A stretch of DNA of 64,000 nt from Bdellovibrionia bacterium (lineage in GTDB: Bacteria > Bdellovibrionota > Bdellovibrionia > Bdellovibrionales > JAGQZY01), in the NCBI GenBank assembly GCA_030427805.1, contig JAUICP010000002.1, positions 62,001 to 126,000 on the forward strand, given 5' to 3'. Every line of letters begins with the position of its first letter. The first letter of the stretch is position 1. Both the position numbers and the translations under genes were made by a program. The notes below the pieces were generated by a model. The model worked only from the letters and a program-made list of their open reading frames with translations, had not been told where the DNA came from and searched no databases. Below are positions 58,273 to 60,054 of the stretch, piece by piece.

Positions 58273-58554
58273 ATGAACATTTTCAAAAAACAGTTGCGAT
58301 CTAAATACAGAGCCGAGTACCCAAGTCAGTTTATTTTTGACTACAAAGATCCCGTGACTCTTTCTCGCTTTATCAGTGAAGGTGGAAAAGTAACTCCTTC
58401 TCGAATTAGCAAACTGAGCATGTCTCAGCAAAGAACTCTTGCTCGTGAAATTAAAAAAGCCCGTAATCTGGCTCTTCTTCCTTCTGGATCTGACGCCTAC
58501 GATAATTTCTACGGAGCAGAGCAAGTCTCTCCAAAGCCTTTTAGCTTCGAGTAG
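58273..58554 (+). CDS. rpsR: ribosomal protein S18
   Basis: A 93-residue S18: [50 protein letters not shown], very close to the consensus in spacing. It has an N-terminal basic stretch and an extra 20-residue C-terminus. AAGGAAAG precedes ATG. Normally grouped with rpsF, ssb and rplI; here it stands alone and divergent from L28. A strong terminator follows. Confidence 0.93.
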
Positions 58555-58673: not shown

Positions 58674-59102
58674 TTAGCTCTTGGCTTCTAAGCTTTTGTG
58701 CTTTCTTCCACCAAAACGGAAGCTATCAATCAAAGCACCTACGATTAAAAGAGTATAAATCCACTCAGCAGCACGGTGGAGAATTTGCCCCAGAGTAAAG
58801 AACTGCACCTGTCCCGATGATGGAAACATATAGAGTTCTTGGGCAAATCCAGTGATGTGAATGATGAGTAAAGGACCGGCGGTAACGAAAAGATGGATGA
58901 GTCCCATCCAAAAAATCAGAGTCTTGCGCCAAAGTGCTGACTTCAAGCCGGGGTAGACAATGGCAATCCCAATGGAAACAAAAAGAGCACCCGCCACTTT
59001 CGGAGCCCAAAAACTCGGAACAAATCTAAAGATCTGTACAACGACAAATGTGGTGACCACTAAGACTGCGAGCCAAATACGTGCTTTCCAGCGAATTTCC
59101 AT
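58674..59102 (-). CDS. four-helix inner-membrane protein of unknown function
   Basis: A 142-residue protein with about four hydrophobic segments (residues 8-28, 33-52, 62-86 and 103-126) and a basic C-terminus (FGGRKHKSLEAKS). Two histidines in membrane-facing stretches (LIHLF, IIHITG) and RAAEWIY. No known family. Weak ribosome binding site. Single gene facing the small gene at 59252. Confidence 0.7.
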   Translation of the reverse strand: MEIRWKARIWLAVLVVTTFVVVQIFRFVPSFWAPKVAGALFVSIGIAIVYPGLKSALWRKTLIFWMGLIHLFVTAGPLLIIHITGFAQELYMFPSSGQVQFFTLGQILHRAAEWIYTLLIVGALIDSFRFGGRKHKSLEAKS

Positions 59103-59154
59103 GGCTACTAGGCTGCCTTAAATCCGAATCACTGTCCAGGTCCGATTCAGTAAA

Positions 59155-59183
59155 TTCTGTCTTCGGATTAAAGCGCTTATAAT
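59155..59183 (+). promoter_or_regulatory. candidate promoter with TATAAT -10 for the 66-residue gene
   Basis: TTCTGT (59155-59160), 17-nt spacer, TATAAT (59178-59183). An 8-bp inverted repeat AATCCGAA / TTCGGATT (59121-59128 and 59162-59169) flanks the -35, a possible repressor site. Confidence 0.4.
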
Positions 59184-59205
59184 CAAACTCTGGCCCGGGA
59201 CTTAG

Positions 59206-59248
59206 GGTCCTAAGACTTGCAAGGGTGATCCTCCATCAGCAAGGAGGA
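59206..59248 (+). promoter_or_regulatory. leader hairpins, one covering the ribosome binding site of the 66-residue gene
   Basis: The first hairpin is CTTAGG-GT-CCTAAG; then TCCTCC-(8 nt)-GGAGGA (59229-59234, 59243-59248) pairs the whole Shine-Dalgarno core AAGGAGG with an upstream CCTCC. This would shut translation until melted or bound. Confidence 0.5.
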
Positions 59249-59251
59249 ACT

Positions 59252-59452
59252 ATGAGATCTGAAAAAATTAAAAGTCAGCTAAAGAGTTTTGGTCTTAATC
59301 ACAATGAATGGCTGGTTAAATGCCCGCCCCTCAGTGGACACTTTAGGATCATGCACAAAACTATCAAAGATCTACAAATGAAAGGACGTCTCAACCGCCC
59401 CGGTGGCTCGATTATAAAAAACCTAATGATCACTGGAGATTTAGCAAGCTAA
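59252..59452 (+). CDS. small basic protein of unknown function (66 residues)
   Basis: ATG 59252 has AAGGAGG 4-5 nt upstream, an almost full-consensus site, so the gene is likely real. The product has 12 Lys/Arg among 66 residues, predicted helix-turn-helix-like composition (SQLKSFGLNHNEWLVKCPPL, TIKDLQMKGRLNRPGGSIIKNLM) and one Cys. No family recognised. Its stop overlaps by 4 bp with the convergent gene at 59449. Confidence 0.6.
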   Translation: MRSEKIKSQLKSFGLNHNEWLVKCPPLSGHFRIMHKTIKDLQMKGRLNRPGGSIIKNLMITGDLAS

Positions 59453-60054
59453 CGATAGGACTCGCAGCGAACTGACATTATCGATCGGTTCCAAGTCTCG
59501 GTTCGCCCCAATTTATCGCTCCCCGGAAGAGTCACAAAAAGTTCTTCTCGAAGAGCTTCCCAGTTTTTTTCGCCAAAAAGTCGAATGACCTGGTTTTTAA
59601 GGCGGCAATAGATGGCAATCTCTGAACCAGAAAGCCAGCCGTTTCTAGAGGAATAGGATACTGGGGGCTTATTTCCCCAGGCGAGCTCAGTCATTAATTT
59701 TAAAGTCGTAAACAAATACTTTTTCACCTGGGACCCAACGGCCGAGCCACACTCTCCCGGCAAAGCCTTGAGGTCCCTATTTATTCGCTTAAGTTCTCTA
59801 AAGAACGCAAAACAGCCACCCATGGAATTGGAGTGAGCACACTCAGCGAGGGACTTCTTAATTTTGGGTTCGAAGGTCTGCCCCATTCGGCGCTCTTGAT
59901 AAAGGTAACCTTCTTGGTTCTTCTCGAAAATTTCAATTTGAATATCACAAAGAGTTTTTGGTGGCTCAATAATCGTAATGAGAAAGAGACCGGCACCAAT
60001 GCCAAGCAATCCAAGTAGACCTTTAGGTAATGAAGCAATTAAGCGTTCTATCAT
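59449..60054 (-). CDS. membrane-anchored protein of unknown function
   Basis: A 201-residue product with an N-terminal hydrophobic helix (residues about 9-29, LLGLLGIGAGLFLITII) and a soluble domain with five Cys (TLCDI, AECAHS, GCFAF, GECGSA, YCRLK). Ends RCESYR. No known family. Its ATG has no clear ribosome binding site. Same strand as the two envelope genes upstream. Confidence 0.65.
   Translation of the reverse strand: MIERLIASLPKGLLGLLGIGAGLFLITIIEPPKTLCDIQIEIFEKNQEGYLYQERRMGQTFEPKIKKSLAECAHSNSMGGCFAFFRELKRINRDLKALPGECGSAVGSQVKKYLFTTLKLMTELAWGNKPPVSYSSRNGWLSGSEIAIYCRLKNQVIRLFGEKNWEALREELFVTLPGSDKLGRTETWNRSIMSVRCESYR

Follow-up and report, generated by a model that had tools for sequence, protein, structure and literature searches.

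This locus raises the question of whether a small gene is controlled by a hairpin that covers its ribosome-binding site and, if so, how such a hairpin would be bypassed. The window (the whole stretch of 64,000 nucleotides analysed here, from an assembly of 4.5 Mb in 11 contigs) contains on its forward strand an open reading frame of 66 codons (59252-59452, ATG to TAA, protein P0001). The Shine-Dalgarno sequence AAGGAGG (59241-59247) is located four bases before the ATG, as the original prediction had stated. The upstream CCTCC, which the same prediction had placed in a 6-bp hairpin with this site, was recovered in a perfect 6-bp stem formed by a 5' arm TCCTCC (59229-59234) and a 3' arm GGAGGA (59243-59248, within the Shine-Dalgarno region), both on the forward strand. 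This stem has a loop of 8 nt and a folding energy of -9.8 kcal/mol (fold of 59225-59260), and its five inner pairs have a pairing probability of 1.0. Shuffles of the short leader equal or beat the energy of its own fold in 3.5% of cases. A Watson-Crick stem of at least 5 bp on the Shine-Dalgarno sequence was found in none of 32 other ORFs of the window (ORFs of at least 100 aa with automatically chosen starts, Shine-Dalgarno sequences of at least 5 nt, loops of 3-12).

As judged from sequence comparison, the small ORF is a real gene, because the differences from a sister genome are all in third codon positions (12/12, for 175 coding bases compared) and because 83 of the 143 genomes searched in the class contain a member of its family. 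This last count was obtained with a profile built on 51 sequences, which left 60 searched genomes without a match; 82 of the 83 genomes have a single match and one has an extra weak match (E 0.008). With a profile built on three orthologs, 78 of 140 genomes in the order had shown one match apiece. In the sister MAG (G001), the small gene is split at 59277/59278 by a contig break, between the end of C131 and the start of C200, and the two contigs do not overlap. Examination of 76 loci gave 72 with an ortholog, and the removal of 10 same-place duplicates left the 62 loci used below. The proteins, about 68 residues long, form a family within the order that is recognised by the motif FGLNPxxW and, more fully, by the pattern L..FGLNPxxW...H..D....G. 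A small basic protein had been predicted: P0001 is indeed basic (net charge +8), but this value is the maximum among the 62 orthologs, which range from -7 to +8, and basicity is not conserved.

The family shares the pattern GLNPxxW...H with DUF6906 (PF21847), but differs from it in that P0001 scores 16.7 bits, below the curated cut-off of 23.6. DUF6906 matches with E <= 0.1 were obtained for 7 of 51 orthologs (best 5e-4). A search of 290 genomes for DUF6906 returned one true member, at another locus, and no member of the small-ORF family; this true DUF6906 gene (L010, G176:C3:22168-22317) is separate from the copy of the small-ORF family in the same genome. An origin from a phage or a plasmid was considered and rejected: the top phage match (E 0.1) covers half of the protein, plasmid matches appear only at E >= 2, and viral contigs account for none of 53 pattern stretches. 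The top hit of a PDB profile search (E 0.013) is partial, covering residues 300-333 of an 841-residue chain, and was not accepted as homology. A structure predicted from the single sequence had a mean pLDDT of 61 and was left unused. As a guess, the small protein could be a regulator that acts at a particular stage of the predatory cycle.

The genomic context is well conserved. The gene of ribosomal protein bS18 (58273-58554) is located upstream on the same strand and is the presumed source of read-through transcription. Between it and the small gene lies a divergent gene of 142 aa (58674-59102, reverse strand; present in 51/62 loci), and downstream a convergent gene of 201 aa (59449-60054, reverse strand; 58/62 loci); neither has a Pfam match. 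At 59449-59452 the small gene and the convergent gene overlap by their stop codons. The genes of bL28 and bS18 adjoin the small gene in 60 of the 62 loci. In all 60 assignable loci the upstream side includes a co-directional gene, which is bS18 in 57 cases and the 201-aa gene in three. Five loci lack the divergent gene, and there the co-directional upstream gene is 144-281 nt from the small gene.

By eye, the bases that follow a TTGC element in the ortholog leaders complement the region from the Shine-Dalgarno sequence to the ATG, with sequences that differ between species. This pairing was evaluated with a swap test, where the 5' segment of each leader was paired with its own start region and compared with its pairing to the start regions of other species. 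The main windows extended from 0 to 14 after TTGC (the first base after TTGC being 0) and from ATG-15 to +3. The swap tests cover 55 of the 62 leaders, seven having no TTGC-type anchor, and the requirement of a 3-nt loop removes further leaders. In the choice of the promoter anchor, preference was given to GG; this fixes the frame and cannot favour pairing. For 47 leaders, native pairing reached -7.55 kcal versus -5.40 kcal after swapping, with a z of -6.6 and 0/5000 permutations as strong. The same z of -6.6 was obtained with 42 less redundant leaders, and values of -5.0 and -3.8 with the 24 leaders outside the genus designated g15 and the 18 leaders within it, respectively (0/5000 permutations in each case). 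With G+C-matched permutations (n=39) z was -5.9, and helices of at least 7 bp were present in 46% of native versus 15% of swapped combinations. The signal covers roughly the first 16 nt after TTGC and, around the ATG, positions -16 to +4. Pairing on the coding strand exceeds that on the other strand beyond the swaps (p 0.001), as expected since RNA permits G-U pairs. The leader of the window, where the 5' arm occupies positions 8-13 after TTGC, enters only some swap windows because its loop is short; it is not in the strongest ones and is included in the n=45 test. From these comparisons, a stem masking the ribosome-binding site is conserved by covariation in the relatives, its arms turning over while pairing is kept. 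The 'hairpin-gated' gene of the original prediction is thus matched by a stem kept despite sequence change. An unconserved or unstructured leader had been named there as the result that would speak against it; this was checked, and the stem is conserved.

The signal could in principle be an artefact, with kinship, common composition or the choice of windows mimicking pairing and the hairpin of the window arising from a chance match to a strong Shine-Dalgarno sequence. Several observations go in this direction. The swap windows were initially picked after inspection of the leaders. In an undirected scan of 381 window pairs, where the stem pair was the strongest, the background z had a standard deviation of 1.3 and an unrelated window pair reached -4.0 (-3.3 after G+C control). 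In a first control, made with 20 further sigma-54 leaders, p was 0.008; this set included one family member (L085), and the effect faded on enlargement: with 83 other sigma-54 leaders, of which 60 or 55 were testable, p was 0.17 and 0.11 (starts were called automatically, and 51 additional sites lacked a usable one). A general property of sigma-54 leaders was therefore rejected as the source of the pairing, since the enlarged control had no clear effect. A held-out set was made of 19 ortholog regions fetched after the windows had been fixed, of which 13 were anchored; dropped were one region without a start, one with a doubtful start and no anchor, and one without an anchor. The swap tests on this set gave p values of 0.067 (n=6), 0.047 (n=12) and 0.023 (n=9), all in the same direction, so that this small set agrees weakly with a covarying stem. 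Against an artefact stands the persistence of the signal when near-duplicates are removed, inside g15 or in the rest, and with G+C matching, never equalled in 5000 permutations. We consider this explanation very improbable.

What is the TTGC element that precedes the 5' arm? Promoters of sigma-54 (RpoN) have the consensus TGGCAC-N5-TTGCW, and their transcripts are expected to begin 12 nt downstream of the C in TTGC. The leaders resemble such promoters by the exactly spaced GG/GC core GG-N8-TTGC, detected in 40 of the 62 ortholog leaders (-82 to -22), and by the presence of rpoN in the genome of the window (G000:C1:274371-274850, E 2.9e-65). The core appears in 1/62 leaders on the other strand and in 2/321 regions before other ORFs of the same loci; it is missing from 22 of the 62 orthologs. 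Among the held-out leaders, 4/18 have it. The best sigma-54 match has strict GG and GC in 43 of 62 leaders, with a distance from TTGC to ATG of 29-66 nt in 42 of them and of 92 nt in one. In the TTGC-anchored alignment, GG and TTGC are prominent among the 23 leaders of g15 as well as among the 32 others, and rpoN was detected in 18 of 19 genomes checked, including the sister genome. These sequence features indicate a sigma-54-type promoter core in the relatives. The leaders differ from the standard form in that the box of g15 is mostly CGGC-N7-TTGCA and in that the -24 element of the window has GT in place of GG. As a separate observation, 42 of 43 canonical TGGCACN5TTGCW sites in five genomes end in TTGCT and one in TTGCA.

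In the window, the equivalent of the -12 element of the orthologs is TTGC(A) (59217-59220, forward strand). The position of the -24 GG (59207-59208) is degenerate, reading GT in this leader and GC in that of the sister, and the sigma-54 core was not recovered in the window itself (score 6.1, p 0.21 versus shuffles). By its sequence, the promoter of the genus of the window is eroded or altered; given the degenerate -24 element, another start or a weakened promoter may therefore be used. The transcription start predicted from the -12 element is 59232, and an mRNA beginning there would retain three of the six pairs of the hairpin. Tables of start sites accompany a published study of B. bacteriovorus (PMC3627812).

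Stems of -7 kcal or lower are formed by 31 of 48 leaders, and in these the position of the 5' arm was measured. Its centre is 8.0 nt after TTGC (sd 2.7) at any leader length, and loop length tracks leader length (rho 0.80). In the same leaders, 188 of 268 stem pairs precede the start predicted for sigma-54, and the swap test shows zero signal from 12 nt after TTGC onward. A stem located after the predicted start was rejected, with no signal over the following 12 nt. The 5' arm is thus, to the extent that these alignments can tell, tied to the promoter element and not to the start codon. The predominance of pairs before the predicted start suits a read-through lock, which needs an arm upstream of the start.

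Our preferred reading, to which we give a probability of about one half, is a sigma-54-coupled read-through lock on the ribosome-binding site of the small gene. The small gene is kept beside bL28 and bS18 and, in most relatives, has a sigma-54-type promoter, the bases from the -12 element to about +3 being the complement of the ribosome-binding region. An RNA entering from upstream, by presumed read-through from bS18 or from the next gene upstream or from a weak sigma-70 start, would carry both arms, and its ribosome-binding site would therefore be hidden. A sigma-54-started RNA would begin inside the 5' arm, would retain few pairs and would be translatable. Promoter and hairpin would jointly keep the protein off until a postulated sigma-54 activator fires. 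The sigma-54-type element had been missed by the original prediction; because it was found, the logic is likely to shift from a gate opened by ligand or temperature to a read-through lock, and the interpretation as tight control is supported in part.

Folding of the leaders is in line with such a lock to a variable degree. The start region becomes more open, with an unpaired fraction of 0.405 in the long RNA and of 0.547 in the RNA from the predicted start (50 leaders, with no length-matched control). Within the long RNA this region is less accessible with the native arm than with swapped ones (0.403 versus 0.439 unpaired, 30/45 leaders, p 0.008), but the leader of the window runs opposite, with 0.56 native versus 0.49 swapped. 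The Shine-Dalgarno sequence of the window is unpaired at 0.28 in RNAs beginning from 59190 to 59230, at 0.47 from 59232 and at 0.70 from 59234, so that the predicted start at 59232 would free it only partly in these models.

A true riboregulator was also considered. The mRNA would begin before the 5' arm, perhaps at a TATAAT-like site, and would always carry both arms; a protein, a small RNA, a metabolite or temperature would open the stem, and GG-N8-TTGC would be a part of the RNA or the promoter of something other than this mRNA. The covariation of the arm, which is RNA-like, and the location of part of the arm before the predicted sigma-54 start suit this explanation, as does the lack of a full -24 element in the genus of the window. 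The hexamer TATAAT (59178-59183, forward strand), proposed in the original prediction as a promoter, is present as a possible sigma-70 -10 element with no recognisable -35, and a -10-like hexamer is fixed at this place, 39 nt before TTGC, in the leader of the window and in most g15 leaders. However, it is TAAAAT in the sister, and the 32 anchored leaders from other genera than g15 show no conservation of it; a promoter scan found no sigma-70-type site on the forward strand here and a single site on the reverse strand, for 1.2 expected. The exact spacing of GG to TTGC suits a promoter more than an RNA loop, and no other part of the leader covaries clearly. The Rfam searches also speak against it: in the window no family reached the gathering score, and nine relatives gave only tRNA and sub-threshold matches away from the leader, none relevant, and a shared RNA motif or riboswitch was rejected on this basis. 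We regard a true riboregulator as rather unlikely.

Alternatively, the stem would be real but would merely tune translation or protect the 5' end of the mRNA, with no switch. The stems are modest on average (native mean -7.6 kcal), and leaders folded singly from the predicted start are only a little more stable than shuffles (mean z -0.55, 10/53 below 0.05; the leader of the window has z -2.3). The attachment of the arm to the promoter element and not to the start codon goes against this explanation, as does the lack of a clear effect in other sigma-54 leaders, and we hold it to be improbable.

The read-through lock resembles known systems. In the transposase genes of IS10, IS50 and IS200, transcription from outside folds the start away and the inner promoter begins past the 5' arm. 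The common point is that a read-through RNA would mask the start; the difference is that no mobile element is apparent here. For gene e of phage T4 (lysozyme), long early transcripts are reported to hide the start and late ones, lacking the 5' part of the structure, to be well translated (PMC3014915). In a similar way, the hairpin on the ribosome-binding site of I-TevI of T4 is described in its source as present only on longer transcripts (PMC2988022). By analogy, the T4 genes e, soc, 49 and I-TevI would be like the small gene in limiting the hairpin to longer transcripts and in having their own promoter produce an RNA without the 5' part. Unlike these, the gene studied here is cellular, syntenic and single-copy, its promoter is of sigma-54 type and not T4 late, its start is a predicted one, and its arm sequences turn over across an order.

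If the read-through lock is true, the early/late hairpin logic of T4 would exist in a cellular gene that an order of predatory bacteria conserves, and would there be coupled to sigma-54. Promoters of sigma-54 are already silent without their activator, and a second layer would point to a protein that is costly when mistimed. It would also provide a first handle on a conserved family of the Bdellovibrio order, and the swap test between species is a simple route to similar locks elsewhere. More tentatively, and with a probability that we place somewhat below even, the lock would be chromosomal and order-wide, the region melted by sigma-54 co-evolving with the ribosome-binding site so as to keep a potent small protein off in two layers, and a few other sigma-54 genes (e.g. 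L101) may share it. A narrow search of the open-licence literature returned no description of a sigma-54-coupled lock on a ribosome-binding site.

Other elements of the leader are less general. A second stem upstream of the hairpin, CTTAGG/CCTAAG, is present as predicted (59201-59214), but no ortholog counterpart was detected, and it falls in the most divergent stretch between the window and the sister: the leaders have no difference in 59103-59152, 13 in 59153-59227 and none in 59228-59277. The predicted 8-bp inverted repeat is also present, and is longer than described, with imperfect arms of 12 nt (59117-59128 and 59162-59173, 92% complementary) that are the same in the sister; it has no counterpart in the g15 alignment. 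The repeat (59117-59173) is a possible protein-binding or upstream activating site. The 50 bases identical in the sister (59103-59152) are located between the divergent genes and contain ATCCGAATC and GTCCGATTC as well as one of the two arms of the inverted repeat; from its sequence, this block could be an activator-binding site or the promoter of the divergent gene. In g15, a conserved block AGACAACTCAAG ... CTAGTCCA directly precedes the divergent gene and ends at its ATG (upstream alignments of L015-L037), and by its motifs it looks like the promoter of a nearly leaderless mRNA. Finally, in another sigma-54 gene, L101 (G030:C1:487337-487352, reverse strand; 490 codons as called), the leader tatcccttccatatatacaaggaagggatcc forms a 9-bp stem onto the ribosome-binding site, beginning just after TTGC.
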